From a virus, in the IMG/VR virus record IMGVR_UViG_3300035698_014770, positions 1-35,914 of that record: a stretch of DNA of 35,914 nucleotides; one strand, written 5' to 3'. A program made the translations under genes and the position numbers. The notes below the pieces were generated by a model. The model saw nothing but the letters and a program-made list of their open reading frames with translations. It had not been told where the DNA came from and made no database searches. Shown here piece by piece: positions 8,431-33,438 of this stretch (its first letter is position 1; each line of letters begins with the position of its first letter).

Positions 8431-9444
8431 TCATTGGATGCCTAGACGCGCACGAACTTCCGAGAAATAATCATTGGCTGATACCCCGCCCTCCGAGCGC
8501 TTTCCTTGTATCGGTTGAGAATCGCCTTTACTGAACGTGCGCCTCCCTTTGGCCAAAGAAAGATTGTACTCTTGGATCTCTTTTATCTTTTTATCGCCAA
8601 GCATTTTGATCAACCGCTCAACCGGCTGATTCTGGTACAAAGCTTTGTGTTCAGCCTCGTAGGTTGATTCGATCTCCGCGACCACCTCACCCAGGCTGGG
8701 ATCGTACCCGTTTGCCCTGGCCGACATCATGAACTTTGCCATCCGTGCTATCGTCTCCGGGCTTCTTGGTAGCGATGAGCCTTCGAGAGCTTCTATAAAT
8801 TGTTTCTCGTAGGTAGCCCTAGCAGCGTTCTTAGCTTCCGATTCAGCCCTTTCCTTAGCCGTCATCTCTTCTCGGTTTTTGTCTTCTTTTTGCTTTTGAT
8901 CGTGTTCGGCTCGCCACTTTTTCAGGTCCTGGTATTCGAGTTGTTCTGGGCTCATCTTCTGGCGCTGAATGTCGTTCCATAAGACCTCTTCTGCTACCTG
9001 CTTGAAAAGCTCCGGTCCGACCAGTTCCATCAGCATGTGCGGGTTCTGAGTAAACGCTTCTTTTAGGCCAAGCTTTTCCGATGCTGCGATAGGATCGCTC
9101 TTGGCCGCTCGGAGAACTTCCTCGACGGATTTTCTCAGCTCGGCTGCCTCCTCAAACCGCCTATCGGCAACCGATGCTTTTTGCGCTCTCGATATCACGT
9201 CGTCGTAGTCTAACTCTTCGTAGCTGTCTTCTCCGAGCTTGAGCTTGTGTTTGGCCGAGCGCCAAGGCTCGACATCTTTTTTCGGCTCCTTATCCACGCC
9301 GACGGCTTGGTCTGTTGCCACACCTTTGGCCGAAAGAGCGTCTGCCGAATGTTCCGTTTGTGCGGCTGTAGCTGCAGATGGTGTTGCGGTTGCGCCTGCG
9401 CCTGCGGTTAAAGGTTGACTGATTGGCTGGTTCTGTTCGCTCAT
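8431..9444 (-). CDS. Scaffolding protein, module 1
   Basis: Probably the internal procapsid scaffold. 337 residues: a low-complexity Ala/Thr/Gly-rich N-terminus, then HKLKLGEDSYEELDYDDVI (about 66-84), a long charged helical middle and a C-terminal helix SANDYFSEVRARLGIQ. The same plan appears in the module 2 protein at 27937-29013 (KLKLKVNGQEREYSEEEVI and a C-terminus ending LRKKAGI). A basic amphipathic C-terminal helix is where P22-type scaffolds bind capsid protein. It follows the portal gene by three bases, the expected order, but no capsid gene follows. Family by analogy; no enzyme motif. Confidence 0.7.
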   Translation of the reverse strand: MSEQNQPISQPLTAGAGATATPSAATAAQTEHSADALSAKGVATDQAVGVDKEPKKDVEPWRSAKHKLKLGEDSYEELDYDDVISRAQKASVADRRFEEAAELRKSVEEVLRAAKSDPIAASEKLGLKEAFTQNPHMLMELVGPELFKQVAEEVLWNDIQRQKMSPEQLEYQDLKKWRAEHDQKQKEDKNREEMTAKERAESEAKNAARATYEKQFIEALEGSSLPRSPETIARMAKFMMSARANGYDPSLGEVVAEIESTYEAEHKALYQNQPVERLIKMLGDKKIKEIQEYNLSLAKGRRTFSKGDSQPIQGKRSEGGVSANDYFSEVRARLGIQ

Positions 9445-9447
9445 ACT

Positions 9448-11511
9448 TTAAGCTCCTGGCATTGTCGCAGCGTTGGCTACGGCTGGTTGAAACGTCTCAC
9501 CCGTTAGCGGGTTTGTCGGCATGTTGGGGTTTGACGGCATCGCGTCTTGCAAGGTTTCGTTTGGCGAACTCAGCACGTCGGTGCCAAGAGGCGGCGCCGT
9601 CCCGGCAAACTCACCACCCGCCTGACCAGACCCACCAGGACCAGGACCAGGACCAGGCGCAGGAGCAGGAGCTGGAGCGATAGGTTCAACACCGACCATT
9701 CTCAGTAGATCTGGATCGGTTTCTCTGGCCAGCCTGACGTGCTCTTGAATGTGAGCCGAGACTAGCCCGACGATCGACGGGTTCTTTCTCGCCTCGGGAT
9801 CATCCAAGATCGACTTGTGCTCTCTGATGTGTAGCGAATGATTGTCAGCCCACAACGCCTGGACTAACTCGCCCGAGCGAAGATCTTCGTTCTCGGATTT
9901 GATGTTTAGAAGTTCTGTCCTTTCCGACTCGATCAAAGGCTCAAGAGATCCCGTTCTGATGACCGACAGGTACTGCTCAGGCGATTTGATCAGCCCGGTG
10001 TCTAGTAACGTCTTGGCGATGTCGACTTTTCCTGCCGTGGTCTTTGATACAGCCGAGGTTCGCTTGACCACCACCCGGTCGATACGTCCGATGTCTTGGC
10101 CAGAAAACTCCTTGAGATAGGCACGCTTTCCAATCCCGGAGATAAGAGCGACCCGAGCGCTCGAAGCGTACTCTTGTAGAATGTTGATGATTCCTGTTCC
10201 GACGTCCTCGCACAAAAATTCGTACTCACGCTGCAACCCGTAAGAAAACTGGATCGCTTGCGAAGCGAGTAGAGCCATCGCAGCGCCAGAAGCGCCGGAT
10301 AGTTGGCCTTGCGGCTGACCACGGATGATCGAGTTCAAACCAAACACCTGCTCGGCCTTGGCAGAAAGAATATCGAGATAACGAAAAATCTCTGGCGGAG
10401 TTGACGTCAAGTTCAAAGGCTTTGGCTCCATACCGGGCTCGGTCTCGATGACGTTTAACCCACCAGATAAAGATTCCATCGAGACGTTATGACCGCGAGG
10501 CAGCCAGATGTTTTGTACGCCAAACGATGCCTGGTTGGTTAGAACGGTCGAGTTCAACCTATCCAGACCCTCCTGGATACCAAGCCCGTCGATAGCCGAC
10601 GAATAACCGTAGGGAGAATCAAACAGCCTGGCCGGTTGGATGCGGTAGATCGGGATCTTTTTGAACGGAAGGTTGCCATCAAACAACACCTCGCTCGATG
10701 GCAGAAACGTCGTCATCCGACCGTCTGGCACCGCGCCCGATCTTTCGTGGTAGAAGTCAAACACCGGGATCTCGTCTGTCGACGAATTATAAGATCTTCC
10801 CATCGTGTAACGGTTGGTCTGATGCGAGCGGTCGTCGACTCCCATCAACTCGGCTTCTTTTTCTGGATACTCCGAGATCAGATCAAACCGGTTGACGTAG
10901 CGGCGAACGATACGCCATGACGGATCATCGGCGCTCGTGAACGGATCACATAGGATGTCTAGCTGGTGTTTGGCAACACAGGTCAGATCGCCCTCGTGAT
11001 AGATCATCCCGGTCTCTGGATCGGCATCGATCTGTCGGCCCTTGGTCGTATCCCAGCCTAAAACGATGTAGCCGCCGCACAGGGCAATGGCGTACTCGGT
11101 TGCTTGAACGAGCGTTCTTTCTAGTCGTTTTTCCGTTAGGTAGTATTCGAGAAGACCGTCTGCCAATTCCTGTTGTGCCTGGGATTCGTAGTCGGTATTG
11201 ATCGCCATGGCCTCTAGGGCTGGCCTTTCAGCGGTCGTCATGACAAGAACGTGCTGGATCAGGTTTCGAAACTCGTTGATCTTAAAATCCCAGGTTTCTC
11301 CTTGCGTACCACCCCGAGATATCCCGTGCGACTGAAAAACACGGGTGTTGTCAAACGAGCTGCCAGACGATCCGAAATAATAATGGTAGAGCTTTCTAAG
11401 AAGCGCGAAATACCCTTGAGATTCAACGTCTCGGTAGTACATGTCGACCTTGGAGCTTAGCTCCACGCCGACTTCGCTTGTGTCTTTCGCCGCAAAATAC
11501 TCTTGTTTCAT
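9448..11511 (-). CDS. Portal protein, module 1
   Basis: The dodecameric DNA gate of the procapsid. 687 residues, about the usual size for P22-like portals. It matches the module 2 portal throughout: N-terminal M(K/H)xEYFA, INTDY about residue 105, STVLTNQASFGVQNIW about residue 325, LTSTPPEIF about 370, then ASQAIQFSYG. That clear homology, with a terminase gene immediately upstream and a scaffold downstream, makes the call firm. The C-terminus carries Ala-Pro and Pro-Gly dipeptide runs encoded by hexamer repeats (9640-9675), absent in module 2, and a disordered tail. ATG 11511 is seven bases after the terminase stop. Confidence 0.88.
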   Translation of the reverse strand: MKQEYFAAKDTSEVGVELSSKVDMYYRDVESQGYFALLRKLYHYYFGSSGSSFDNTRVFQSHGISRGGTQGETWDFKINEFRNLIQHVLVMTTAERPALEAMAINTDYESQAQQELADGLLEYYLTEKRLERTLVQATEYAIALCGGYIVLGWDTTKGRQIDADPETGMIYHEGDLTCVAKHQLDILCDPFTSADDPSWRIVRRYVNRFDLISEYPEKEAELMGVDDRSHQTNRYTMGRSYNSSTDEIPVFDFYHERSGAVPDGRMTTFLPSSEVLFDGNLPFKKIPIYRIQPARLFDSPYGYSSAIDGLGIQEGLDRLNSTVLTNQASFGVQNIWLPRGHNVSMESLSGGLNVIETEPGMEPKPLNLTSTPPEIFRYLDILSAKAEQVFGLNSIIRGQPQGQLSGASGAAMALLASQAIQFSYGLQREYEFLCEDVGTGIINILQEYASSARVALISGIGKRAYLKEFSGQDIGRIDRVVVKRTSAVSKTTAGKVDIAKTLLDTGLIKSPEQYLSVIRTGSLEPLIESERTELLNIKSENEDLRSGELVQALWADNHSLHIREHKSILDDPEARKNPSIVGLVSAHIQEHVRLARETDPDLLRMVGVEPIAPAPAPAPGPGPGPGGSGQAGGEFAGTAPPLGTDVLSSPNETLQDAMPSNPNMPTNPLTGETFQPAVANAATMPGA

Positions 11512-11518
11512 TCTGGTA

Positions 11519-13054
11519 CTACCTTTTCGTTATAAGCTTTGACAGTGGATGATTTCGGTTTTGTGCTCGCAGGGAGGCCGACGTGTTGAAAACATCGACC
11601 CCGAAGTTCGTAGGATAGGGGTTGGATTGTCTGTCGACATGCCGCACGAAATAGATCGCCGCAGCCAGACAATCGAAATGGCCGTTACCAACTGTTCTTT
11701 CAAACTCGGTGCGCCTCTTATTCCAGATGGCGTAACGAAGATGTGAGGACACGTTGATAGCCCTCGGTGAGATGACGAGAGTCTCTCTTTGTACGTCCAG
11801 TCTTAGATGGTTGACCTGAGCTTCGAGATGATCTTTTCGAACCTTGTTGACCGTACAACCGTAGCGGCCCATCTCTTGGAGAACAATCAGATCACCGTCG
11901 CCGTAACGACCACGCACCGGACGATCTCCCCACAAAGCTCGCTCTTTTTCTAGGATCTGCTTGGACAAAGATTCGATGTTGTTTCCAGACTCAGAAAAGT
12001 TGATCAACATGTCGTCTTCGATGACACACACACCCGAATCAAAATCGTAGTAACCAAACACGATGCCCGTGTAGTCGATAAACCCCGTATCGATCACTGT
12101 GTAGGGATAGAACATCTTCGGTCTTGCGTGAGGTCGAATGATCCTCGCGGCTTTCTCTTCTGTGAACTCTGGGATGACGGCCCGGTCTGGATCGACAAGA
12201 CACTCGGCCTCAAGCTCCCTCCGGAACGTCACCGACTTAAATGCAATCAAAGACTGCGCCCAAATTGCATCGCTCAGCTTGGTCTCGTGAAACTCAACAT
12301 TGAACCGGTCCCAATCGATCTCGCAACCAAGCTCGTCGGCAAACTGGAGAATCTGTTTGACGTTCAACAGAGGGTTCTGCCAGATTGTCTTTTTGATCGC
12401 AGCGTCCTGGGCTTCACACTCGGCCAACAGCTGAACAAAGTAGTGATCGGGAGATAGAGGAGGCGTCGAGCTGATAAGACCAAAACCGTTTTTGGCATAC
12501 ATCAAAGTCGGCGTTAGGATATCTGATATAACGGTTTTGAGATCGCTAATAAATCCAGCTTCGTCGATCACGTAGTAGTCAGCTCGGATGCCCCTTATTC
12601 TCTCGGCGTTGCCATTATCCGTGCCAAACAGCATGATCTTCGAGCCGTTGTGACCAAACACAAACTCGTTGTCTTGAACTCGGTACTTCGGACGCAGCTG
12701 TCTCGGGCAATCTCTTAGGATCTCGTTGAACTGCGGCAAAACAATTTTCTTAAGAGCTGACGCCGTTGGCGCTGCAAACGGAATAGAAATATTCGGACGG
12801 CGGAGGCATTTTTCCACTGCGAACACGCCAAGCGAGAACGTCTTTCCAAAACGTCTTGCCGTTCGCATGAGACCCCTTGGTTTTGATTGCGCTTCGATGC
12901 GATCAATAAAGCTAAAAAGATCAGACTGTCCATCGTGGAGCTTCCATCTAAGATCGCCGCGACGCCATAACTCTTGTGCAGCTTTAAAGGGATCTAATTG
13001 TGGTTTTCGCAGCAAGACGAAGTTCCTCAGAATCCGAGTCCGCAAACTCGGCAT
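11519..13054 (-). CDS. Large terminase subunit, module 1
   Basis: DNA-packaging motor and nuclease, 511 residues. ATPase: Walker A-like RTARRFGKT (K71), Walker B YYVIDEAGF (D164, E165), and a coupling motif SSTPP near 195. RNase H-like nuclease: D322 in TVIDTGFIDYTG, D386 in YGDGDL, and D461 in GHFDCLAAAIYF. The ELWRRGDLRWKLHDGQ start region aligns with the module 2 enzyme (ELWRRGILAPWKLYETQ), which supports the start although it overlaps the small-terminase-like gene by 71 bases. All catalytic residues are present, so this copy should be active. Confidence 0.93.
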   Translation of the reverse strand: MPSLRTRILRNFVLLRKPQLDPFKAAQELWRRGDLRWKLHDGQSDLFSFIDRIEAQSKPRGLMRTARRFGKTFSLGVFAVEKCLRRPNISIPFAAPTASALKKIVLPQFNEILRDCPRQLRPKYRVQDNEFVFGHNGSKIMLFGTDNGNAERIRGIRADYYVIDEAGFISDLKTVISDILTPTLMYAKNGFGLISSTPPLSPDHYFVQLLAECEAQDAAIKKTIWQNPLLNVKQILQFADELGCEIDWDRFNVEFHETKLSDAIWAQSLIAFKSVTFRRELEAECLVDPDRAVIPEFTEEKAARIIRPHARPKMFYPYTVIDTGFIDYTGIVFGYYDFDSGVCVIEDDMLINFSESGNNIESLSKQILEKERALWGDRPVRGRYGDGDLIVLQEMGRYGCTVNKVRKDHLEAQVNHLRLDVQRETLVISPRAINVSSHLRYAIWNKRRTEFERTVGNGHFDCLAAAIYFVRHVDRQSNPYPTNFGVDVFNTSASLRAQNRNHPLSKLITKR

Positions 13055-13247
13055 CTATGGTCGTTTCATCTACTGCATGTTTCGACAGCTCTGCGTAAAT
13101 ACGTAGAACCAACTCAGACTGAGAAGCGCTAAGACATCCTGTCCGCTGCGCCTGCTCTTCTAGACCTTGTAAGATCGCCCGTAAAAGCGATTCAGCATGT
13201 TCTTTGGCATTCAATTCACACTCGTCTTTGTTGAGCTTTCTCGGCAT
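12984..13247 (-). CDS. Putative small terminase subunit, module 1
   Basis: An 87-residue, acidic helical protein (EHAESLLRAILQGLEEQAQRT) directly upstream of and overlapping the large terminase gene. ATG 13247 (MPRKLNKDE) is preferred to TTG 13262. The pattern of a charged helix, then LS..(E/Q)L..L resembles the 79-residue gene at the same place in module 2. Position strongly suggests the DNA-recognition subunit, but no helix-turn-helix is obvious and the protein is short. Call is from synteny. Confidence 0.5.
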   Translation of the reverse strand: MPRKLNKDECELNAKEHAESLLRAILQGLEEQAQRTGCLSASQSELVLRIYAELSKHAVDETTIDAEFADSDSEELRLAAKTTIRSL

Positions 13248-13437
13248 ATAGGATTGCAACACGGTCGCGTAACGTCATCAACTGAGACTCAAGCTCGCTC
13301 GTTTTAGTTGCTACGGCTTTAAACCTGTTTTCCAGCTCCTCGCCTCCCACGTCGCGCTTTGGCTTGAACGCATTGATCGCGTGAACCGAGCTGATAAGAA
13401 GGACGACCGGCCATAAGACCAAAGAATAATCACCCAT
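13216..13437 (-). CDS. Membrane-anchored coiled-coil protein, module 1
   Basis: 73 residues: N-terminal hydrophobic segment YSLVLWPVVLLISSV (about 4-18), then a charged coiled coil with a Lys/Arg-rich end. Starts at ATG 13437 with GGAG seven bases upstream, overlapping the previous gene by eight bases. The module 2 gene at 32719-33042 has the same membrane-plus-coiled-coil plan at the same relative place. Could be a holin or an inner spanin; it is separate from the lysis cassette at 7268-8307, so the role is uncertain. Confidence 0.6.
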   Translation of the reverse strand: MGDYSLVLWPVVLLISSVHAINAFKPKRDVGGEELENRFKAVATKTSELESQLMTLRDRVAILYAEKAQQRRV

Positions 13438-13627
13438 TGCTTGGCTCCACAGCATGATTGTACATGTCGTCCATCAGACGTGAGATGATGATCTCTTGTA
13501 GGTTTTCCTGCTCTTCGTGAACTAACTTTGCACCTTCGAATCTTCGGTAGATCCAATGACCTCGGTGTCTAGCTAGTTGAAACGTCGGCGCTTTGGGCTT
13601 CGATGGTGTCGTTTTCTTTTGACTCAC
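13430..13627 (-). CDS. Small conserved module protein (65 aa), module 1
   Basis: Starts at GTG 13627 with AGGAG six bases ahead and lies within the end of the preceding gene by 59 bases. Sequence is basic at first (MSQKKTTPSKPKAP), then RHRGHWIYRRFEGAKLV and an acidic helix. The module 2 counterpart (33054-33248) has the same spacing of a Trp, a Gly-x-x-(V/L) turn and an acidic helix. No function recognised. Confidence 0.5.
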   Translation of the reverse strand: MSQKKTTPSKPKAPTFQLARHRGHWIYRRFEGAKLVHEEQENLQEIIISRLMDDMYNHAVEPSNG

Positions 13628-13823
13628 TGCCGCTCCTAGAAAGTTCCTGGATTTGGAATACGTGCGATTCGATCACACCGTCTAGCCACTCGTGCGCTCT
13701 AAGAGATTGCTCAAGCAGGCTAGGATCCGAAGGACACTGCGAAGATCGCAACACCTGCTTAAGAAACTGAACGGTTCTATGTCCACTCTCTAGCGCTCGA
13801 ACCTTTGTTAGCCGGTCTTCCAT
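13569..13823 (-). CDS. Small conserved module protein (84 aa), module 1
   Basis: 84 residues, mostly helical with acidic, Ser-rich C-terminus. A central helix (RAHEWLDGVIESHVFQIQEL) resembles the region AESAHFIGAVLATMEASALP of module 2 gene 33235-33438, in the matching operon slot. ATG 13823 follows an AGAGG. This is the first gene of the duplicated block. Function unknown. Confidence 0.5.
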   Translation of the reverse strand: MEDRLTKVRALESGHRTVQFLKQVLRSSQCPSDPSLLEQSLRAHEWLDGVIESHVFQIQELSRSGSESKENDTIEAQSADVSTS

Positions 13824-13897
13824 TGGAGCCTCTCATTAGATCTTCTTTTAGATAGTACCAGATGAGTATCAGAAAATCTTATGAGTTGGCAACTAGC

Positions 13898-16060
13898 CTA
13901 GTTTGGAACGGCAAGCCCAGCATCCATTCCCTGGTTATCATCTTCTCCCTGATTCTCGGTAAATAGACGCCGGTACTCGGGATGATTTTTCCACAAAAGA
14001 AAGTGAGTTGTACCAACAGCGGTCTCGCCGCGTTGAGCTGCATTGAGTAGTGGAGCGGCATATTCTCCAAGTCGTTCCGGCGCTTCTCTTACTAGCCGCG
14101 TAACGTTGTTAGCAGCTGGAACGCCTCTTTCTGCCGCAAAATCAAGAGCGCCTTTAAAGACCCTACCGCCAAAACGATCTACGCCAGCACCGATCGCAGC
14201 GCCTGTCGTCGCGCCAAAAGGTCCGCCTGCAAAGCCGCCAATGACGCCACCAGTGACAGCCCACCTGTGACCACGACCGCCAGATTGATCGGCGTCGAAT
14301 GCGCGTTTCGTCGATAGATCTTGTATTTGTTCGCCCAACTCGCCTCGGTATTTTCCGTCTAGATATCGGACCACTTCTTGTTCTTTGCGGTTCGATTCAT
14401 TGGCAGCACGACGGATCAATGCTTGTGGTGAACTCACCCCTGCGACAGGTTGCGCGGCTATACTTGCCTCGGCTAGCACGCCCTCAGCTTCACGCAGCGC
14501 CGATGTTTCTGGCAGCATGGATTGTCGCTCCCTCAGCACAGAAGGATCTAACAGCGCTGACTGAGCGTCCTCGTAAGACTGCAAACGAGATAACCGGTCA
14601 CCACCCGTTGCCTCGTCCATCTGAGATAGCAAGGCCCTTTCTTTCTGAAACTCGGGACGAGACAACCGTCCAAGCTGGGTTCGTGTATTCCTGCCGCCGA
14701 ACACCTTGTTAGCTTTTTTCGACAAGTTTGTGAGACCAGCCAGCGGTCCCATCACTTCTTTGTACTCATCTATCTTTAGCAGCTCGTCGTTTAGATCTGA
14801 TCGAAAATCCATGAACGCTCGCTCGCCTTTGTTTGGCTTCCCACCGGCCATGCTTCTTTTTGCATACGCGTCTTCTAACTCGCCGTCGATCAGCTGGATG
14901 AACCGTTTCATGTCGGGAGCAGATATCGTTTTTGACTTTTGCGTTAGCTCGTCGAGGTAGTCACGGTAATAGGTCAGCTTGTCATAACCAGGCGTCCCCT
15001 TCGGAGGAGCTACGCCGTTGATCTCAAATTCTTTTAGAGACTTAGTCAGAACGCCCTTGATCGGCGCTAGCTTAATGTTTTTGTCTGCCATGGTAAGAAC
15101 ATCAAACGCCTCGGAACTTCGTTTTGACGTTTCTTTTCTCAGAGCATCGAGACCCTCTAGTGTGTCATCAACAAGCTCACCCGGGACCTTCTCTTTCTGC
15201 AATCCCTCCTTGAAAAGACGGTCAGCCATTCGTTTCTCGCTTTGCGCAATCTTGACATCTGTCCTTGCGTTTTTGACCGAATCTTTCAGCTCACTAATTT
15301 GGTTCGCGGCAGTCTCTACTAGAGATCCTTCGTCAACGCTGTTCACGGAGGCTCGTCTTGCCATGTAGCGTCTTGCATCTTTGTCATCCACACGAGAAAC
15401 AAGTCCACCGAGCTTTCTTGCTCCGGTGCCAGCCAGCTCGACACCATCGCCAAACTTTTCCGCTAGGTAGTCATAGATTCCTTTTGCACGTGGAGCGTTT
15501 TTCGATGCTACCTTAGCGATTCCACCGATCGCGGCAGCGCCGCCAGCGCCAAACGAAGCACCGACACCGGCATCTCTTGCCAGATCGGCTGCGTTTTCGG
15601 ATTCAGAATATCCAGCTCCGGCAACACCACCCTCGGCAGCTCCAAGCGCTACCGCCTTGCCAAGAGTCAGCCCTGCTTTCGCTCCCTGTGCACCCTTGAC
15701 TAGTAGACCACCCGCCAACATCGAAGACGCGATACCGCCACCGAGTTCCGATGCGCCGTATGTCCATGGATTGTCTTCTCTCGCTTGCCGGTTGTAGTCT
15801 CGCCAAGAATCGCGCCTAGTCTTGTAGGCATCATCGAAAGGTTTTTCGCCGCCAGACAGAGCGTAGTCACCGACCGCTTGTGCGCCGCCGAGAAGCTCAT
15901 CGGAGTAACCAAACGTTGCGCCTTGACCGAGCCCGGCAACGCCAGATGCTACGGCAGAAGTGGGAGGATCGACCGGCGTGCTCGCTCTAGCCTGAGCAGC
16001 CCTGGCCCGCTCCAGTCTTGCTCGTTTGAGTTTGAGTCTTTTCTCGTCCAAAGATGACAT
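13898..16060 (-). CDS. Large internal virion / DNA ejection protein candidate
   Basis: 720 residues. N-terminus is a basic charged helix, followed by Ala/Gly-rich hydrophobic stretches (about 95-190, e.g. ELGGGIASSMLAGGLLVKGA) able to span membranes, then long charged coiled-coil regions, and another Ala/Gly-rich patch (VTGGVIGGFAGGPFGATTGA, about 615-635). That alternation is typical of podovirus proteins injected ahead of DNA. It starts two bases before the preceding gene's stop region (16063) and is followed by a 74-base gap. No enzyme motif, such as a transglycosylase, was seen. Role by composition and neighbours. Confidence 0.6.
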   Translation of the reverse strand: MSSLDEKRLKLKRARLERARAAQARASTPVDPPTSAVASGVAGLGQGATFGYSDELLGGAQAVGDYALSGGEKPFDDAYKTRRDSWRDYNRQAREDNPWTYGASELGGGIASSMLAGGLLVKGAQGAKAGLTLGKAVALGAAEGGVAGAGYSESENAADLARDAGVGASFGAGGAAAIGGIAKVASKNAPRAKGIYDYLAEKFGDGVELAGTGARKLGGLVSRVDDKDARRYMARRASVNSVDEGSLVETAANQISELKDSVKNARTDVKIAQSEKRMADRLFKEGLQKEKVPGELVDDTLEGLDALRKETSKRSSEAFDVLTMADKNIKLAPIKGVLTKSLKEFEINGVAPPKGTPGYDKLTYYRDYLDELTQKSKTISAPDMKRFIQLIDGELEDAYAKRSMAGGKPNKGERAFMDFRSDLNDELLKIDEYKEVMGPLAGLTNLSKKANKVFGGRNTRTQLGRLSRPEFQKERALLSQMDEATGGDRLSRLQSYEDAQSALLDPSVLRERQSMLPETSALREAEGVLAEASIAAQPVAGVSSPQALIRRAANESNRKEQEVVRYLDGKYRGELGEQIQDLSTKRAFDADQSGGRGHRWAVTGGVIGGFAGGPFGATTGAAIGAGVDRFGGRVFKGALDFAAERGVPAANNVTRLVREAPERLGEYAAPLLNAAQRGETAVGTTHFLLWKNHPEYRRLFTENQGEDDNQGMDAGLAVPN

Positions 16061-16062
16061 CT

Positions 16063-17109
16063 TTAGTTCACTCCTAATGCTTCCAATTCAGCATCTAGTT
16101 CGGCTTCGCTCATCTCGTCCGCTGACTTCAAGTTAGACGGGCTAGCCGGATCCGCATAGGCCGAAGGTACAAGTTCAAAACCTCTCGGCTTCGGTTTTCT
16201 CTCGGCGACCGCCGCCCTTGCACTGCGAACCTCGTCAGGAGAAAATCCAAGGTTTTGAACGCGCAAACTTAGCTCTTCGTTTAGTTGGGCGAGTTTTCTC
16301 TTTTGAATATCGGCAGAGTCGTTCCATTTCGGAGCCATAAGACGAAACCGCTCTTCCTCTTGCGCGTTGATCGCGCCACCCGATTGCATTCTGCCGAGGG
16401 CTTCCGTAAAGTTTCGCATGGCCATCGTATACGAGTTGTCCCCAATGAGAGAAAAAGTGTTCTCACCCTCATCGATCAAAGCTGTTTTCATTAGATCTAC
16501 GGCATTCAGGCCCATTGCAGCCGAATCAAACCGCTTTCTTTCCTCGGCTCCCATCTTTGCCAGCCGTTCCTGGTATGAAGCTGGCTTTTCTTTCACCTCG
16601 TTTTTCTCGGCAAGAATAGATCTCATGCTTTTTTCTTTTGCTTCTTGCAGGGCGAGAGCGTCCTTAGCTTTTTTGTCTTGCAAAACGATGGCTTGTTTGT
16701 CTCTGGCCTCTTGCAAAGCGATGGCTTGATCTTCTCTTGCGCCAAACAATCCCCGTTGAAAGTCTTGTTGTGCGAGGCGGTTGTCCAGCCCTTCTCGTCT
16801 TCGGATGATGTGTTGTGCGATCTGCTCGGAGCGGTCCATTTCTCTTTCAGCCATCCGTTGAGCTTGCAGCGGCATAGCCTCGGCTTGGTTGATCATCTGA
16901 TCATAGGCTGCGGTGTCCGGTCTTGTTTGCGAAAAACCAGAGCCGATCTTCTCGGCTGCTTTGCCGAGCTGCGAGTAAAGCGTTTGTTTGTTGGCCGCAC
17001 CCTGCGAGTCGATAGCCCTAAACGCTAGGTCTCGGTCTAGTCCGTCTCTTTCTGTATGGCGCTTTAATAACTCCGCATAGAGCTCATCTTTATCTACCTG
17101 CGTGGCCAT
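16063..17109 (-). CDS. Internal virion protein candidate, coiled-coil rich
   Basis: 348 residues dominated by Gln, Glu, Ala, Arg helices. Four near-repeats of Q(A/K)(I/L)(A/V)LQ(E/D) around residues 125-160 (DQAIALQEARDKQAIVLQDK) form a heptad-like array. It lies in an uninterrupted leftward string of structural genes with three-base and two-base gaps on either side. The profile fits ejection or scaffold-like structural proteins of short-tailed phages. Function inferred from place and composition only. Confidence 0.5.
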   Translation of the reverse strand: MATQVDKDELYAELLKRHTERDGLDRDLAFRAIDSQGAANKQTLYSQLGKAAEKIGSGFSQTRPDTAAYDQMINQAEAMPLQAQRMAEREMDRSEQIAQHIIRRREGLDNRLAQQDFQRGLFGAREDQAIALQEARDKQAIVLQDKKAKDALALQEAKEKSMRSILAEKNEVKEKPASYQERLAKMGAEERKRFDSAAMGLNAVDLMKTALIDEGENTFSLIGDNSYTMAMRNFTEALGRMQSGGAINAQEEERFRLMAPKWNDSADIQKRKLAQLNEELSLRVQNLGFSPDEVRSARAAVAERKPKPRGFELVPSAYADPASPSNLKSADEMSEAELDAELEALGVN

Positions 17110-17112
17110 GCA

Positions 17113-18141: not shown

Positions 18142-18178
18142 CGTGCTAGTCCTTTCTTTCGTTTCACTCTACCGTTTT

Positions 18179-23647: not shown

Positions 23648-23683
23648 GGGGTGTCTTCTCCTCTATGAGTTCGTAACGACTAA

Positions 23684-25852: not shown

Positions 25853-25854
25853 TT

Positions 25855-25915
25855 AAGGTCTCCCATTTGGGCTAATAGGAAGTTAGACCTTTATGTCCCT
25901 GTTCCTATTAGCCCA
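25855..25915 (-). promoter_or_regulatory. Perfect 14-bp hairpin with possible RBS-masking pseudoknot
   Basis: TGGGCTAATAGGAA at 25868-25881 pairs perfectly with its complement at 25902-25915 around a 20-base loop. The loop contains AGACCTT (plus strand, 25885-25891), which is complementary to AAGGTCT at 25855-25861. The latter overlaps the 3' part of the fibre gene's GGGAGA ribosome binding site and spacer. Both pairings can coexist as an H-type pseudoknot in the leftward mRNA and would hide the site. No T-run follows, so it is not a classical terminator. Confidence 0.5.
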
Positions 25916-25920
25916 CGTTG

Positions 25921-26454
25921 TTATACGCGAGAGAAAGCGATCGGTGTGCCGGTAACTGCGCCCGCTCCGCTCGCTAAAACTGCCCCGCCAAGCGTGATTG
26001 GGTCGCCTGTCTTAGACAGCGTTATGAAGTTTCCGACTGGACCCGCTTGGAGTGCTGTTACGGTAACTACGGCAGCGGCAGAAGTGGCCGACACTAATGT
26101 ACGTAAAGTGGGGTTTGCGTTAATTACAGCAGCCAATGAAGCGGCATCGGCGGTATCTGTTCCGGCTTGGCTAAATTGCGCCACTCCTGTGGGAGAAGCT
26201 TTGGCTGTTAGGGTAACTCCAGCAACTATAACAGTGTCGTCTGCTGCAACTGTTTCCAAAGTAATGGTCTGCGATGCTTTTACCGGGGCTGCGGCAGAAG
26301 TATAAAAGTCAAAAGAAGCGTGTCTGTTACCAGAAGCCAGATCGCGGAAATATTGAGAAAGCGCCAGGCAGGCTTCGCGGTCTGCTGTGGAGTCTTGCAA
26401 AATACGATCGACAAAACTAGTGGAACCAGAGGCAACAATAACAATGCTAGGCAT
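25921..26454 (-). CDS. Putative capsid decoration / head protein
   Basis: 177 residues from ATG 26454, which has AGGAG eight bases ahead. The longer open frame to 26502 crosses a terminator. After a short helix (ACLALSQYFRDLASG) the protein is almost all Ala, Thr, Val, Gly with short strands: TITLETVAADDTVIVAGVTL, AASLAAVINANPTLRTLV, AVVTVTALQAGPVGNFITLS. That beta-rich pattern with (A/T)-V-T-(V/A)-A and GxxGN occurs in phage tail-sheath-associated or head decoration domains. Location directly after the capsid gene favours decoration. Not firmly identified. Confidence 0.5.
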   Translation of the reverse strand: MPSIVIVASGSTSFVDRILQDSTADREACLALSQYFRDLASGNRHASFDFYTSAAAPVKASQTITLETVAADDTVIVAGVTLTAKASPTGVAQFSQAGTDTADAASLAAVINANPTLRTLVSATSAAAVVTVTALQAGPVGNFITLSKTGDPITLGGAVLASGAGAVTGTPIAFSRV

Positions 26455-26465
26455 AGTAACTCCTG

Positions 26466-26500
26466 AAAAGGAAAAGGGGGGGGCCATTAAACCCCCCACC
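26466..26500 (-). terminator. Rho-independent terminator after major capsid gene
   Basis: On the minus strand a run of six G (26492-26497) pairs with C (26478-26483) around TTTAATGG, followed by C and TTTTCCTTTT. It ends five bases before the capsid stop codon region and stands upstream of the decoration gene. Likely lowers expression of the following gene relative to capsid. Confidence 0.65.
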
Positions 26501-26504
26501 AAAA

Positions 26505-27728
26505 TTAACTGTTTACGATACCAGAGATTTTAACTAACCATGCTGGACGCTCGCAGAACAAGTTTCCATCATAGAAGAGACGCATTTCGTATCCGGCATT
26601 CGAAGGAAGCTGAAGCATTAACTGCTCGTCGCTCATTCCGGGGAGTCTCATTGTTACGTCAGTAGAACCGATTCTTTTCAGACGCTTTAATGGAGCGCAG
26701 AAAGCCTCGCCTTCTTTAACGTAGATGCTGCAAACGATTTCGATTTCGCCGTTTACGCCGTGGTAGCTGATCGACTCGAAGCCGCTAGTACCTTTGGCTT
26801 TGCTGTAAGACTTGTCAAATTCGCGGAGTGCAGAAAGGTCCGTGTTTAGGTTGGCCCAGCTAGCAGGCGAAACAAAGACAGTTACTTTCTCGTCCAAACC
26901 TTTTGCAACTGCAAGAGCTACGGCAGCTTGAACTTTACCCATAGTTAGGGCTCCGCCAGAAGCGTAGGTATTGCCTTTCCATAGGGCATAACTAGACGCG
27001 TTAATTCCGTGCAGTACGCCAGTGTTAGTTGCATGCTTGTCCAAGCCCGAGAGCTCATTGGCATAGAAGCCGTGGAAAAACAAGAAGTCTCCAGCAGCAA
27101 CGCCAGTAGCATTGTTAACAGTTACTGTACGAGCAACCAAGTCGACAGATGCTACAGTCATGAATCCTGCGGAAATTGTGTCTTGGCGAGCTCCACCAGA
27201 AATTGCGTCGTATGCCTGAATTGCAACCCCTTCAGCGCCGGCCCAAATGCCAGAAGCAAAAGAAGCGGTAGTGAGCGTAAGAGTTTCGCTAGAGACAGAA
27301 GCAACTTCGGCAAGTGAAGAAGAACCGTAGAAGTGAAGGATTTCAAGACGCTTAGTGAAAGAGCTAGTCATGTTGCCGACGATTTGCTCGGACCATTTCA
27401 TGAAAGCTTTTTTGTTGTTACTTGCGCTCGACATTGCATCGTAAGAAACCGATGTGCGGAGAAGTAGGTTTTTGCCTTGGACTTGGGCTTCGGCGTAAAC
27501 AGCTGCGATACTGTCACGAAGAGCGAAAGCGCCAGAGCCGACTGAGAAACCAAATTCGTGAGTTAGTGCAACAGGCTGAATGTACTTGTCGCCTGTTTCC
27601 TTGTCGCCAGAAGCGAAAGGGATTGCTTTTAGAAGACGGACGCCTTCTGGAATGAGTGACTGAATGTTGTCTGCATAAATTTCTTTCAACCATGCGTTTA
27701 CGGTTGAAGCTGCGTTGGTCTGAGCCAT
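26505..27728 (-). CDS. Major capsid protein (HK97-fold type)
   Basis: 407-residue shell protein. Order of features matches HK97-fold capsids of short-tailed phages: N-terminal helix (STVNAWLKEIYADNIQSLIP), a beta hairpin (TGDKYIQPVALTHEFGFSVG), long helix (SASNNKKAFMKWSEQIVGN), a large domain with internal helix KVQAAVALAVAKGLDEK and VFVSPASWANLNTD, and a C-terminal MRLFYDGNLFCERPAWLVKI strand. It is the only capsid-type gene in the window, follows scaffold 2 by 208 bases, and ends at a terminator. AAGGA lies 12 bases from ATG 27728, rather far. Call from fold pattern and gene order. Confidence 0.78.
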   Translation of the reverse strand: MAQTNAASTVNAWLKEIYADNIQSLIPEGVRLLKAIPFASGDKETGDKYIQPVALTHEFGFSVGSGAFALRDSIAAVYAEAQVQGKNLLLRTSVSYDAMSSASNNKKAFMKWSEQIVGNMTSSFTKRLEILHFYGSSSLAEVASVSSETLTLTTASFASGIWAGAEGVAIQAYDAISGGARQDTISAGFMTVASVDLVARTVTVNNATGVAAGDFLFFHGFYANELSGLDKHATNTGVLHGINASSYALWKGNTYASGGALTMGKVQAAVALAVAKGLDEKVTVFVSPASWANLNTDLSALREFDKSYSKAKGTSGFESISYHGVNGEIEIVCSIYVKEGEAFCAPLKRLKRIGSTDVTMRLPGMSDEQLMLQLPSNAGYEMRLFYDGNLFCERPAWLVKISGIVNS

Positions 27729-27936
27729 GGGTGTGTACCATCCTTGAGGTGAGATTTTTGTGATGTGAAGACTGCTGGAACTTGCTTGAGGCCGCCTCTT
27801 TGGTGGGCCGGGGCACTGGTAGGGCTTTTACAGGTGGGATCGATCCAAGAATGGGTACACATCCGCCAAAAGGGCCTCTACTTATATATGGTAGAATTTG
27901 GCTAAAGTTTTTTGCGGATGTGCAAAATAATTTGTA
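27729..27936 (-). promoter_or_regulatory. Intergenic region before capsid gene, possible capsid promoter
   Basis: 208 bases between scaffold 2 and the capsid gene. A 9-bp inverted repeat (CACATCCGC at 27858-27866; GCGGATGTG at 27914-27922) encloses an AT-rich segment containing minus-strand TATATAAG. The long mRNA leader would allow extra control of abundant capsid synthesis. No convincing -35 seen; promoter is a suggestion. Confidence 0.35.
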
Positions 27937-29013
27937 TTAGATTCCTGCCTTTTTTCTCAGCATTTCGCGCCAGTCGTCCGGGCTCAAATATTCCTTGGTA
28001 TTACCGCTACTTTTGCGAGGAGCCGTGAAACTTTGGTCCACTTGTGCCGCTGGAGTAGAGGGTTCGCTGGAGGCTAATTTGGATTTAATTTGGGCCAGGT
28101 CGTGCTTGCGAATCTTCTTGGCCAAATCTGGTCCCACCATGCGAAGGAGGCTGTCTCCGTCCAGGGCTCCAAACATCTGTGTCATGTCGCTGAGGTGCTG
28201 CTCATAGACCATTTCGGCGGCTGTTTTTGCGTCGAGATCGTAGCCATAATCCAGTGCGTTGGCCATTAGCTGCGCTACCTTCTTGATGGAGTACGGGTTT
28301 TTGGGCAGGTTTACTTCATTGAGGGCCTGGGTAATCTTGGTGTCATAATCCTGCTGATACTGGCCTCGCAGTTGTTCCTGGCGCTGAGTCTGCTGCTGCT
28401 GTTGCTGCTGATCTGCTGCTTCTTTATCCCTGGATCTATATGTTTCCAGTTCGTGGCGCATCTGTTCGCGTTCCAGATCTTCTGGTGCCATCGTTTCTTT
28501 GCGGTATTCTTCGCCCAGGTACTGAGTCGCTATATCGCGGAAATCGATGCCCAAATCGGGGTGTGTTAATACGGCTAGCGGGTTGGTCTTGAGCGCCTGA
28601 AGGAATTGCTCTGCAATACGGTGTTTCTCGGACGCTTGCTTGAATCTTTCGTCGGCTGACTCGGCCATCTGTGCTTTGCGGATAACTTCTTCTTCTGAGT
28701 ATTCGCGCTCCTGGCCATTGACCTTCAACTTGAGCTTGCGGATCTCTTTCTTAATTTCCTCTTCTACCTTCTTTTCGGTTGCCGTTTCGGCTGCTGCATC
28801 GACGCGTTTCTCGGAGTCGCTATCACCTGACTCGGATTCGCTACGTGGTTTTGGGGCGCTGGCAGAAGGTTCTTTGGGCTCGCTGGCTGGCGCTTTTGGA
28901 ATGGAGGACTTGCCTACCGCACTTAGGTCCTTGTTTTCCGGGGTTTGTGTTTCTGTTGCCTCTGATACTGATACTTCTGGTGCTGCTGGTGCAGTCGCTA
29001 TTCCGTCAGACAT
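27937..29013 (-). CDS. Scaffolding protein, module 2
   Basis: 358 residues, homologous in plan to the module 1 scaffold. Acidic/Ser/Pro/Glu-rich N-terminus, KLKLKVNGQEREYSEEEVIR (about 98-118), charged helical middle containing a Gln run near residue 200, and C-terminal SPDDWREMLRKKAGI (the capsid-binding end by analogy with P22-type scaffolds). AGGAG precedes ATG 29013. Between portal 2 and capsid, the classical order. The poly-Gln (CTG repeats at 28388-28410) is absent in the module 1 protein. Confidence 0.72.
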   Translation of the reverse strand: MSDGIATAPAAPEVSVSEATETQTPENKDLSAVGKSSIPKAPASEPKEPSASAPKPRSESESGDSDSEKRVDAAAETATEKKVEEEIKKEIRKLKLKVNGQEREYSEEEVIRKAQMAESADERFKQASEKHRIAEQFLQALKTNPLAVLTHPDLGIDFRDIATQYLGEEYRKETMAPEDLEREQMRHELETYRSRDKEAADQQQQQQQTQRQEQLRGQYQQDYDTKITQALNEVNLPKNPYSIKKVAQLMANALDYGYDLDAKTAAEMVYEQHLSDMTQMFGALDGDSLLRMVGPDLAKKIRKHDLAQIKSKLASSEPSTPAAQVDQSFTAPRKSSGNTKEYLSPDDWREMLRKKAGI

Positions 29014-29063
29014 TTGCTACTCCTGTGTGAAACGTATGTGGTTTTTTCTAACAACTAGATCGA

Positions 29064-31058
29064 TTAGGTTTGTGGGACTTGTGGGATATTGGGCATGTTT
29101 TCGGCTATCTCTGGTGGGCTGTTGGGTGGTGCCTCCATTGCCTGCTGTGGAGCCTCCTGGGGCGGTCCTCCTGGGCCTTGAGTGCTTTGTGGGGGTGGTG
29201 CCCCTCCTGGGATTTGCGAGGCTCCTGCTTCGGGTGGCATGGTTCCTAGAGGGGCCTGGCCTAGCGCGTTAAGCAAGTCGGGGTCTACCGAACGTAGGTG
29301 CTGGATGTGCTCCGATATGTGGGCCAGTGTTGCTTCCACAAGTTCCGGCTGCGACCTGGTGTCTGGGTCTGCCAGAATTTGCCTGTGTCCCTGGATATGC
29401 TGTAAGTGCTGATCAACTGCGAGAGAGATAACTTGGCGACCTTCGCGCAATGCTTCGTTTTCTGCCCGCACTAACAAGAACTCTGTTTGCTCGTCTTCGA
29501 TCAATGGTTTGAGGCGGCCCGTAGCCATAACTTCGAAGTATTGTTCGGGGCGCTTAACCAATCCTTGTTGCAGCAAGTTTTCCGCAAGCTGCATACGTCC
29601 ACTTATCGTGCGGCTTACTGGGTTGCCCATATCGACTACAACGCGGTTAAGGGTATCGATGTCGTCCCCAACAAATTCGCGCATATAGCTTTGGTTGTCC
29701 TTGCCCGCAATGACGGCTGTACGTGGCAGGGTTGCTTTGCGTCTAAGCGTGCGTAGAATTCCGGTGCCGGTATCTTCCATAAGACGAGTGTATGCGCCCT
29801 GGATACCGTTGCTAAACTGTACGGCTTGGCTGGCAACTAGAGCTAGGGCTGTTCCCGATTTCAGCGAGGCTTCTGGCTGGCCTCTGGCTACCGAGTTGAC
29901 GCCCGACAATACTTCTCCCAACTGCTCAATGCCTTTGAGGAAGTTAAAGATTTCGGGTGGGGTGTTTGTCAAGTTGATTGGTTCTGGTTTCTCAGAAGAT
30001 TCGAATACGTTTAGGCCGCCTGCCATCTGCAACGGGCTGAGGTTGGTTCCTGGCTTTACCCAAATGTTCTGCACGCCAAACGTGGCTTGGTTGCTAAGTA
30101 TGGTCGAATAAAGAAGATCGGCAGCTTCCTGTACGCACAACAAGTCGAAGGCAACCGTATAGCCAAACGATGTCCCATACTGTGGGTGTGCACACATACG
30201 GTATACAGGCAGTTCTGCGTATTGCAGGTCCGAGGACTCGAGCAACACGTTGTTTACGAACATGGCGTAGCGTCCCTTGGGGCATGCTGGCGTTTTCGCA
30301 TGGTAGAACGTATAAACTGGCACGCTGTCGTCATCTGTAACGTCCAATTGCGTCGTCATGTACTGAATGGCTTGGTGCATGGAGTCGTATGTGGCGCTAG
30401 AGGAAAATATCTCGTCTTTGTGTTTTGGGTAACGAGCTGCCAAGTCGTAGCGGTCTTCTGTGCGGCGTAGGATGTACCAGTCTTGCTTGGTGTCAGTGTC
30501 AGACCTACTGCTTCGTACCACGTTGAAGGGCTCAAACACGCGGGCCACAATGTCCCCGGTTCTGATTTCGGAGCCGTCGTCGTCCTGGGCTGCAGCCTCA
30601 CCGCGCTCTTTGTCCCATTCGACCGACATGTAGGATTCGGCATATAACAGGCAGAGTTCGGCAGCTTGCTTAAAATGCTCTTCTAGACGTTGTTCGCGCA
30701 TGTAGAATTCAAGAATGCCAGCCCCGAGGATTGTTTGAACTTGGGATCGGTAGTCCGTGTTGATTGATCGGCAGTCAAACGACGGACGTTGCTGCGTAAT
30801 CATGACCAGTAAATGTGTTAGCAGGTTTCGGAAGTGATTGGCCTTGAGCATAGATAGCTCGCCTTGTTCGCCGCCGCGCTGGATTCCCGACGCCTCGTGC
30901 ACGTTCCACTCGTTCAGTGCGTAGTAGGCCCGGTAGGTTTTACGCCACAAGCTGGCTCGCCCATTGTTTTCAATCTCGTCGTGATAATTCTGCACCTTTT
31001 CGTACAGTGCTGCGGCGAGTTCTTCCCCTTTCAGGGTGGCAAAGTATTCTTTATGCAT
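29064..31058 (-). CDS. Portal protein, module 2
   Basis: 664 residues, second portal. Matches module 1 over its length: MHKEYFA start, SINTDYRSQVQ about residue 103, STILSNQATFGVQNIW about 323 (13 of 16 identical), INLTNTPPEIFNFL about 360, and a C-terminal Pro/Gly/Gln-rich tail. The two tails differ in length and repeats. AUG 31058 is two bases downstream of the terminase 2 stop. Both portals look intact, so neither can be dismissed as a remnant. Confidence 0.88.
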   Translation of the reverse strand: MHKEYFATLKGEELAAALYEKVQNYHDEIENNGRASLWRKTYRAYYALNEWNVHEASGIQRGGEQGELSMLKANHFRNLLTHLLVMITQQRPSFDCRSINTDYRSQVQTILGAGILEFYMREQRLEEHFKQAAELCLLYAESYMSVEWDKERGEAAAQDDDGSEIRTGDIVARVFEPFNVVRSSRSDTDTKQDWYILRRTEDRYDLAARYPKHKDEIFSSSATYDSMHQAIQYMTTQLDVTDDDSVPVYTFYHAKTPACPKGRYAMFVNNVLLESSDLQYAELPVYRMCAHPQYGTSFGYTVAFDLLCVQEAADLLYSTILSNQATFGVQNIWVKPGTNLSPLQMAGGLNVFESSEKPEPINLTNTPPEIFNFLKGIEQLGEVLSGVNSVARGQPEASLKSGTALALVASQAVQFSNGIQGAYTRLMEDTGTGILRTLRRKATLPRTAVIAGKDNQSYMREFVGDDIDTLNRVVVDMGNPVSRTISGRMQLAENLLQQGLVKRPEQYFEVMATGRLKPLIEDEQTEFLLVRAENEALREGRQVISLAVDQHLQHIQGHRQILADPDTRSQPELVEATLAHISEHIQHLRSVDPDLLNALGQAPLGTMPPEAGASQIPGGAPPPQSTQGPGGPPQEAPQQAMEAPPNSPPEIAENMPNIPQVPQT

Positions 31059-31060
31059 TG

Positions 31061-32524
31061 CTAAGAGATCCTTCCTGTTTTGAGTCGTCGGAGGACTGGA
31101 AACATGTTTTGAATGTGTTCGTTAGTGGTGTTCTTGTGTTGGCGCGGGAACCCCCAGTCCGTGTATTGATTCCACCCGTGGGATGCTGGGATTGGATTAG
31201 AAATACGGTCTAGGTGCTTACTAAAGTAGATAAGGGCCGCAATTAAGTCCCAATGGCCACCGCTGGCACTTCGCGAAAACTTGGACCGCGACTTGTCCCA
31301 CGTAGCAAACTGAAGCTGACTAATTAGCTGCTTGCATCGTGGATGTATGACGATTGTCTCGTTGGCAATGTCCATACGCACGCGGTTAACGTTGGCAGTC
31401 AGATCGCTCTTGTCGGGGGCGTGACACCGAAACTGGTGGAGCTCGTTCATGTCTGCAATTGCCAGCGCGTTGCCGTCCACGATCCTGGATCCTGGCTGCT
31501 GGTCGCCCCACAGATAACGTTCTTTCTGTAGAGCCGCCGCAATGATTTCGGAGCTTGTAGATTTGTTTATTAAAACTTCGTCTTCAATGACGAGCTTGCC
31601 GGCAGGAAAATGCCAGTAGCCACACAAGATGCCCGTAAAATCCACGTAACCAAGATCGAGAACCGTAAGGGGTTTCCAATGCGATGGGCGCGATATGTCG
31701 AGCACTATTTTTTGTATCTTCTCTTCGGTCGCTTCTGGAAACAAAGCAAAGTTGCGGTCTGTTACTGGATTGGCCAGATACTCGCGTTGCCACGTTGTGG
31801 AGTCTTCGCCGCCTGCTTCTTCCATGTACTCGGCGATTTGCTCGGGGGTCAGAAGGTTGTTGTCGTAAATGGTGTACTTGGCATACGCGTTGTCCGCGAT
31901 TGCATTGGCCATGTACCGACTAACGAATGGATGATCCGGGGTAACGGGCGGCGTAGATGCCAGAATGATTTTTGATCCGGGGCGCGTCAACGTTTGCGGC
32001 ATAAGAACCGACTCAATGACGTATTCCAGATCCGAACAGAAGCCAGCCTCGTCAATCAATCCTAGGTCGCAAGACTGTCCCCTAAGGTTGTCAATCTGGG
32101 CTAGCTCGGTTCCTGCAATGTGAATTTCGCTGCCATTGGCAAACTCGAACACACCGTCGAAAGAGGTGAACTTTGGTTTGAGGTGCTGCGGCGCGTTCTC
32201 CAATATCTGGCGCATCAAGGGCATGATAATCTTACGAGCCATCTTCTGGCTGGGTGCGGCAAACTTGATCTGCTGGTGAGGATTCTGGAGTGCTTGCTCA
32301 AGCGCCAACACACACAACGCGTAAGACTTGCCCAATCGGCGGCTGGCATTGATTACAAACTTTTTCTTCGGGGACGCCCGAATAGCCGCAACCATTTTCT
32401 GTTGCGTCTCATAAAGCTTCCATGGCGCAAGAATGCCGCGTCGCCACAGCTCTTCTTGCTTCTGCTCGTTGGACCACTTACTTTTTTGCGGTCTTCCTAC
32501 GGGCTTCTTTTGGACTTGGGTCAT
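31061..32524 (-). CDS. Large terminase subunit, module 2
   Basis: 487-residue packaging ATPase/nuclease. Walker A NASRRLGKSYAL (K66), Walker B LGLIDEAGF (D158, E159), STPP at about 190. Nuclease carboxylates D290 (VLDLGYVDFTG), D350 (VDGNAL), D426 (GHWDLIAALIYF), at the same spacing as in module 1. The start region overlaps the preceding small gene by 47 bases. All motifs are intact. N-terminal basic stretch KKPVGRPQKSK replaces the module 1 sequence. Together with module 1 this gives two apparently functional packaging motors. Confidence 0.93.
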   Translation of the reverse strand: MTQVQKKPVGRPQKSKWSNEQKQEELWRRGILAPWKLYETQQKMVAAIRASPKKKFVINASRRLGKSYALCVLALEQALQNPHQQIKFAAPSQKMARKIIMPLMRQILENAPQHLKPKFTSFDGVFEFANGSEIHIAGTELAQIDNLRGQSCDLGLIDEAGFCSDLEYVIESVLMPQTLTRPGSKIILASTPPVTPDHPFVSRYMANAIADNAYAKYTIYDNNLLTPEQIAEYMEEAGGEDSTTWQREYLANPVTDRNFALFPEATEEKIQKIVLDISRPSHWKPLTVLDLGYVDFTGILCGYWHFPAGKLVIEDEVLINKSTSSEIIAAALQKERYLWGDQQPGSRIVDGNALAIADMNELHQFRCHAPDKSDLTANVNRVRMDIANETIVIHPRCKQLISQLQFATWDKSRSKFSRSASGGHWDLIAALIYFSKHLDRISNPIPASHGWNQYTDWGFPRQHKNTTNEHIQNMFPVLRRLKTGRIS

Positions 32525-32717
32525 TCTTGATGTCTTCTAATAAGTCTTCTAGTGGGAGTTCTTCGGGGGCTGCTGAAGTCTCGCCAATGAAGGATTTGTA
32601 AAGCTTGATTAGCTTGTCTAGGTAGGCCAGTTCGACGGTCGATAGTTGCTGCGTTTTGGACTGCTCGTTTAAGCGGGTTGCTTCGCGCAACAGGATCTCG
32701 TGTATTTTCTCATGCAT
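32478..32717 (-). CDS. Putative small terminase subunit, module 2
   Basis: 79 residues, charged helical (MHEKIHEILLREATRLNEQS) with acidic middle and basic KKEARRKTAKK-like end. Immediately upstream of terminase 2 and overlapping its start. Resembles the module 1 counterpart at the same place. No clear DNA-binding motif; small-terminase function is by synteny. Confidence 0.45.
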   Translation of the reverse strand: MHEKIHEILLREATRLNEQSKTQQLSTVELAYLDKLIKLYKSFIGETSAAPEELPLEDLLEDIKNDPSPKEARRKTAKK

Positions 32718-32718
32718 G

Positions 32719-33042
32719 TTAGGAGTTGTTTCTCGAGCCGGGGCGCAGTGTGTCGCGCATTTGCAGAGCTGTCACCTTTGTTTCGAGTTTGCCCAGTGCT
32801 TCCTGTAGGCTGACTGCCTCGTCGGCGGAATTGACCGGCTTGCCTGTGCCTATGCGTCTGATTTGGTACCCAATAACCGAGCTCACAAACACAGCCAGAT
32901 CCTGAAGCTGCACGTGCTCGCGGGTCAGTATGTATCCCAACGTAAACAGGACGGATAACTGCGTGATACTCAGGTCATTGTTGACGTCGATAATTCGCAA
33001 AAAGCGCAGAGCGCGCAAAGCCTTGTCGGTGTATAACTCCAT
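32719..33042 (-). CDS. Membrane protein with coiled coil, module 2
   Basis: 107 residues from ATG 33042 with AGGAG upstream; the longer frame to 33177 runs through the previous gene. Two hydrophobic stretches (LSVLFTLGYIL about 30-40, LAVFVSSVIGYQI about 49-61), then a coiled coil (SLQEALGKLETKVTAL). Same membrane-plus-coil plan and same position as module 1 gene 13216-13437. A holin-like or spanin-like role is possible; not identified. Confidence 0.55.
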   Translation of the reverse strand: MELYTDKALRALRFLRIIDVNNDLSITQLSVLFTLGYILTREHVQLQDLAVFVSSVIGYQIRRIGTGKPVNSADEAVSLQEALGKLETKVTALQMRDTLRPGSRNNS

Positions 33043-33053
33043 GTAGATAACTC

Positions 33054-33248
33054 CTAAACCCAGAAGATGGACATTTTGCGGCGAAGGGATTCCAACGCAA
33101 TTGCTCGCATGTCTGGTTCTGTGGACTTGCGCTCTGTGACCTTGCCGTTTACGATCGTGAATTCCGTAACAACCCAACCCAACTGCGTTCTTCTCAGTCC
33201 GATGGCAAGCTCGCTAACTTCGGGAATCTTCTCTTCATTTTTCGACAT
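33054..33248 (-). CDS. Small conserved module protein (64 aa), module 2
   Basis: 64 residues, overlapping the previous stop by 14 bases, with GAGGAA upstream. Contains RRTQLGWVVTEFTIVNGKVT and an acidic helix, then a basic end. Counterpart of 13430-13627 by order and pattern (Trp, Gly turn, acidic helix). Function unknown. Confidence 0.5.
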   Translation of the reverse strand: MSKNEEKIPEVSELAIGLRRTQLGWVVTEFTIVNGKVTERKSTEPDMRAIALESLRRKMSIFWV

Positions 33249-33438
33249 CTGATTTTGGTTCCTCGGGAAGGGCGCTGGCCTCCATGGTGGCGAGCACTGC
33301 GCCGATGAAATGTGCGGACTCGGCTACGTGAACAGCAACTTCGCCCGAAAACAATCCGGCGCTCAAAAGGCTCCGAACGTTCCGGTAGATACGAATGGTT
33401 TCCTGTAACTGGTTGATTTCTGGTAGGGGTGCGGTCAT
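33235..33438 (-). CDS. Small conserved module protein (67 aa), module 2
   Basis: 67 residues, helical (NQLQETIRIYRNVRSLLSA, HVAESAHFIGAVLATMEAS) with acidic end. ATG 33438 follows GAGGA. First member of the module 2 seven-gene block; matching slot in module 1 is 13569-13823. Not recognised. Confidence 0.5.
   Translation of the reverse strand: MTAPLPEINQLQETIRIYRNVRSLLSAGLFSGEVAVHVAESAHFIGAVLATMEASALPEEPKSDVEK

Follow-up and report, generated by a model that had tools for sequence, protein, structure and literature searches.

A DNA-packaging block that appears twice in one short phage contig raises the question of whether two packaging systems share a virion or two related phages have been joined. 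The contig is the IMG/VR record IMGVR_UViG_3300035698_014770, the whole of which (35,914 bases, linear, without closure, open at both ends and free of Ns) was analysed here and is referred to as the window. Its profiles and gene order are those of a family of tailed phages with a phrog_156 portal and a phrog_2 terminase, and its terminase, portal, scaffold-like, capsid, 838-aa and 342-aa tail proteins are all related to other members of this family. Read on the minus strand from high to low positions, the window encodes the protease, small ORFs, terminase B, portal B, scaffold-like protein B, the capsid protein, a 193-aa protein and the fibre, followed by proteins of 60, 296, 838, 132, 492, 342, 348 and 720 aa. 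Further small ORFs, terminase A, portal A, scaffold-like protein A, a 95-aa protein and an M15-peptidase endolysin come after the 720-aa protein (Table 1). The major capsid protein, the protease and the fibre were each found once in the window. At 6520-7010 (+) lies the remnant of a tyrosine integrase (Pfam Phage_integrase, E 4e-7), of which only the C-terminal part is open, with stops upstream; it is followed by a sequence resembling a tRNA or tmRNA 3' end, GTGGGTTCGATTCCCGCCGCCTCCAC, which we read as a decayed attachment site. A terminator-like hairpin with a T-rich tail at 8335-8357 (-) directly follows scaffold-like gene A, ahead of the 95-aa and lysis genes; such hairpins are as common in shuffled sequence.

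Table 1. Features of the window, with positions counted from its first base.
Feature	Position	Strand	Basis or remark
Left piece, A-last phage type: early, lysis, block A and tail/ejection genes	1..23646	.	Markov ratio and trees; right limit uncertain (23.6-25.0 kb)
Scaffold-like protein A, 337 aa	8431..9444	-	homologues adjoin portals in G106 and G055
Portal A, 687 aa	9448..11511	-	phrog_156, E 3e-17
Large terminase A, 511 aa, motifs intact	11519..13054	-	phrog_2, Pfam Terminase_6N
Small ORFs ahead of terminase A, span 12984..13823	12984-13247, 13216-13437, 13430-13627, 13569-13823	-	positional counterparts only
Tail/ejection genes: 720, 348, 342, 492, 132, 838 and 296 aa proteins	13898..23463	-	order as in G055 and G106
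838-aa tail protein	20056-22572		
Junction zone: 36-bp gap (fibre stop to 60-aa gene) and 3' half of fibre gene	23647..25040	-	change points; 3' half of fibre gene neutral in composition
Tail fibre, 722 aa, C-terminal Peptidase_S74 chaperone domain	23684..25852	-	PHROG tail fibre matches; Peptidase_S74, E 3e-13
Right piece, usual-order type: fibre 5' part, capsid, block B, protease and upstream small genes	25041..35914	.	Markov ratio and trees
Major capsid protein, single copy	26505..27728	-	phrog_14242, E 2e-13
Scaffold-like protein B, 358 aa	27937..29013	-	41% to G003 homologue at the same place
Portal B, 664 aa	29064..31058	-	phrog_156, E 3e-16
Large terminase B, 487 aa, motifs intact	31061..32524	-	phrog_2, E 5e-31; 57% to G003
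Small ORFs ahead of terminase B, span 32478..33438	32478-32717, 32719-33042, 33054-33248, 33235-33438	-	
Head maturation protease, single copy	33857..34408	-	phrog_94, E 5e-28

The terminase, portal and scaffold-like genes of blocks A and B agree in order and strand, and all six are intact. BLASTP detected homology between the two terminases (37% identity, E 2e-103), the two portals (39-40%, E 7e-166) and the two scaffold-like proteins (23%, E 3e-17). An earlier reading made from the sequence only had described seven genes present twice; this holds for these three pairs and fails for the four pairs of small ORFs, which match in position and size only. BLAST gave no match between them, the z-scores of the claimed pairings against shuffled sequence did not exceed 0.6, and their homology is thus not shown. 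Several small ORFs ahead of terminase B have homologues in the relatives L021 and G003, and none of these was detected in block A. Profile matches in PHROG and Pfam identify the portals and terminases of both blocks; the scaffold-like proteins match no family in either collection and take their name and presumed function from their position. Alignment showed that both terminases keep the Walker A, Walker B and nuclease acidic residues, as had been claimed, and the two copies are full length and align over the same 468-residue span, which rejects a split or intein-interrupted terminase. In terminase A and its relatives in G055 and G106, the ATPase and nuclease parts are separated by an insert of about 27 residues, absent in terminase B and the other relatives, and the portals of the A clade share the motif GQLSGASGAAMALLA. 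Elsewhere in the family, the terminase of L021 (6172-8401) is spread over two overlapping ORFs, and its halves are separated by additional sequence that weakly matches an HNH endonuclease, possibly a homing insert or intein.

One packaging block per genome is the rule in this family, from which the window departs. Related records were collected with short peptide patterns and are a sample rather than a census; 120 others encode a relative, 66 of them at least 30 kb long as counted from the search tables. The double module was looked for in these 120 records and is absent, each having one portal and no second one in portal searches. Terminases were checked in 22 records, two of which (G105 and G117) gave two matches. 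The two matches in G105 belong to one terminase that is cut by the ends of a circularly permuted contig, and those in G117 are 97% identical with one at the very start of the contig, which makes a strain or end overlap likely. An apparent doubling in CP017838 (L019) was likewise rejected as a scaffolding artefact: an identical stretch of 3258 bp at 22520-25777 and 31582-34839, adjacent to a string of Ns, gives the false appearance of another terminase start.

We read gene orders in the relatives with profiles for the capsid, portal, terminase, scaffold and two tail proteins, and found two late-gene layouts. In the usual order, the terminase, portal and scaffold genes precede the capsid, fibre and tail genes (G003, L021, G105, G118 and dozens more contigs, in some of which further genes separate portal from scaffold). 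In the rare order, here called A-last, the capsid, fibre and tail genes come first and the terminase, portal and scaffold genes last, following the homologue of the 720-aa protein. This order is seen in G106 (IMGVR_UViG_3300048591_000615), where the capsid precedes, and in G055 (IMGVR_UViG_3300020042_007859), whose contig starts just upstream of the tail genes, leaving the head genes outside it. G106 has an exact 127-bp end repeat and is therefore a closed map, a complete circle of 35.8 kb with a single A-type block. In the window, the right side follows the usual order and the left side the rare one. From the two layouts, block A stands where A-last phages keep their sole known block, and block B where usual-order phages keep theirs. 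A misplacement of block A by misassembly at 13.8 or 8.4 kb was considered and rejected, as G055 and G106 hold the same block after the same tail genes; G055 also has an endolysin homologue downstream of its block, as in the window, together with a weak homologue of the 95-aa gene. Independent genomes with one module each, which the sequence-only reading had set against a genuine double module, were thus found: the only block of G106 is of the A type, and G003, G105, G118 and the closed genomes G108 and G109 each carry one block, at the usual position. Still other arrangements occur in the family, with about 9 kb between portal and scaffold in G004 and the portal after the 838-aa homologue in CP017838.

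The closest relatives of the two halves are different phages. G003 (IMGVR_UViG_3300020219_000021) and L021 (IMGVR_UViG_3300020203_000125) resemble the window in block B, protease, capsid and the order from protease to fibre; the window capsid is 66% identical to that of G003 and 38% to that of G106. G003, however, has a single block, with none after the 720-aa homologue, and the tail proteins of G003 and L021 are more distant from those of the window than are those of G055 and G106. The latter two share the tail gene order and the position of block A, with identities of 55% for the 838-aa protein and about 47% for the terminase and portal of block A, whereas G106 has an extra 311-aa gene between the fibre and a 62-aa gene. 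Apart from two records that fall outside the clade, a viral scan with A-clade portals returned just G106 and G055. The nearest phage record in the databases is Proteobacteria phage MWH-Nonnen-W8red 1 (CP017838, from a Silvanigrella aquatica culture), with related tail genes and a portal of 28% identity, but its portal lies far from the terminase.

Phylogenetic trees placed the pieces in the same way. The window capsid groups with G003 and L021 (support 100/100), and portal B with G003, L021 and L004 (100/100). In contrast, portal A (100/100), terminase A (99/100) and the 838-aa tail protein (100/100) group with G055 and G106. Forcing the capsid to group with G106 or the 838-aa protein with G003 cost 50 and 56 log units, respectively, and both alternatives were rejected by the AU test (p ~2e-5 each). 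The sister groups on the two sides of the junction therefore differ, as in a recombinant. Blocks A and B fall in different clades, which bears out the earlier view of an old divergence rather than a fresh tandem copy. An ancestral double block with later losses fails to explain why the capsid and tail proteins conflict, since the histories of two single-copy proteins would not diverge in this way through loss from a doubled ancestor.

These results indicate that the contig is, very probably, a single join of two phages of this podovirus-like family with differently ordered late genes. The right piece would derive from a usual-order phage, in which the terminase, portal and scaffold precede the capsid gene, and the left piece from a phage of the rarer order, in which they follow the last tail/ejection gene. 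The join would lie within the tail-fibre gene or immediately past it, at a point equivalent in the two non-collinear layouts. Because it links equivalent points of non-collinear genomes, the packaging block appears twice and the other late genes once, and a single join accounts for every feature of the window without a special function. The proposal that two related phages had been joined is thus supported by the conflicting phylogenies, the two gene orders and a switch in composition. No parent of either piece at high identity was found among the relatives, which counts against a single join and means that the join is not seen from outside.

The compositional switch puts the junction within about 23.6-25.0 kb, either inside the fibre gene (3' half) or in the 36 bp that separate it from the next gene, close to the earlier estimate of 25.85 kb though not at that exact place. 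Codon usage changes at 23503 with a gain of 178, compared with at most 39 in codon shuffles and 32-70 in nine relatives. Markov models gave change points from 23745 to 24932, different models placing the switch across the 23.6-25.0 kb interval. Scored in 1-kb bins, the third-order strand-symmetric Markov ratio changes sign once: all bins between 0 and 24 kb are positive and all those past 25 kb negative, with the 24-25 kb bin close to neutral. Both ends of the window (the early region and the last kilobase), which were held out of the Markov training, keep the composition type of their own side. Gene by gene, left-type composition marks the large structural genes to the left of the fibre, and right-type composition the fibre gene, the capsid gene and those of block B; the protease and a few short genes are neutral.

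Two of these results weigh against the single join. The shift at four-fold sites is nearly an exact reverse-complement change (p 3e-20 directly, 0.18 after complementing), and a replication-strand effect could produce much of the codon signal. The relative G004 (L016-L018) has a compositional split near 12.5 kb that is as large as that of the window. The codon change point is therefore weakened as sole proof, being nearly a strand-skew inversion. The strand effect is not the whole story, because strand-symmetric dinucleotide distances are 99 between left and right, versus 40 between left and early regions (and 40 between the right piece and G003). Given the strand-skew and G004 caveats, our case rests on gene order and trees, with composition as support.

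The single join may be a recent real recombinant or an assembly chimera, and we hold the two to be about equally probable, each a little short of an even chance. In a real recombination, an A-last phage co-infecting a cell with a usual-order phage would have received from it some 11 kb comprising head genes and fibre, and both packaging blocks would have stayed, since they were located at different places. In its favour, the contig is gapless and without Ns, the genes flanking the junction are intact and in register, and the junction falls at the fibre gene. On the other hand, a second junction would be required in a circular hybrid; this open contig shows none, and each of its ends keeps the type of its own side. 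An assembly chimera, which has the same standing, would arise if two phages of one sample were identical over some stretch at or close to the fibre gene, where the assembler then passed from one to the other. The single junction fits this explanation, and the signature differs over the full length of the two sides with no blending begun. The linear, unclosed record and doubled core genes unseen in the 120 relatives likewise favour a chimera and count against a real molecule. However, for a chimera the identity would have to extend over at least one assembler word, whereas the family shares no exact stretch longer than 15 bp with the window's fibre gene. A generic fibre repeat was thus rejected as the cause and did not fool the assembler, and the absence of a gap argues in the same direction.

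Both blocks of a real molecule would appear functional, judging from the ATPase and nuclease motifs kept in both terminases. A real phage in which either of two complete but divergent terminase-portal-scaffold sets does the packaging, with a single capsid, is nevertheless very unlikely. A stable lineage with two working packaging systems, using both portals or both terminases, seems very unlikely. The full length and conserved motifs of both terminases and both portals would suit it, but the left and right trees conflict, the composition is unblended, closed relatives need one block only and there is only one capsid; we found nothing in support of the earlier suggestion that two packaging systems share a virion. 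Two large-terminase genes have been reported in Enterococcus phage vB_EfS_SE (PMC11510935) and Parabacteroides phage phiPDS1 (PMC10773633), and the authors' accounts of such pairs are a homing endonuclease gene between the genes or two domains of one split terminase. Unlike these phages, the window has two full-length terminases, each with its own portal, and our literature search, mainly of freely readable papers, found no phage with two divergent terminase-portal blocks. A duplication of the phage's own block, whether old or fresh, is hardly credible: the three homologous genes do agree in order and strand, but a tandem origin is rejected since A and B are not nearest relatives and lie in separate supported clades with different outside sisters, and the single-copy capsid and tail genes conflict too.

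Should the single join be a real molecule, block B is probably the head builder because it goes with the only capsid protein present, and the simplest working model is that block B would build the head and block A would be a redundant leftover, expected to decay. A real hybrid would be a recombination between two phage gene orders caught soon after the event, with both blocks intact. It would also bring a portal conflict between head and tail, as portal B belongs with the capsid lineage and portal A with the tail lineage, and if either block packages, such a phage would offer a natural test of how portals are matched to capsids and to tails. If the join was instead made in assembly, the window is an example of a metagenome virus contig with seemingly doubled core genes, in which gene order and conflicting trees are shown to expose the false doubling. 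Whether the hybrid is real or not, this family has a rare second order of late genes, for which a closed genome is evidence.
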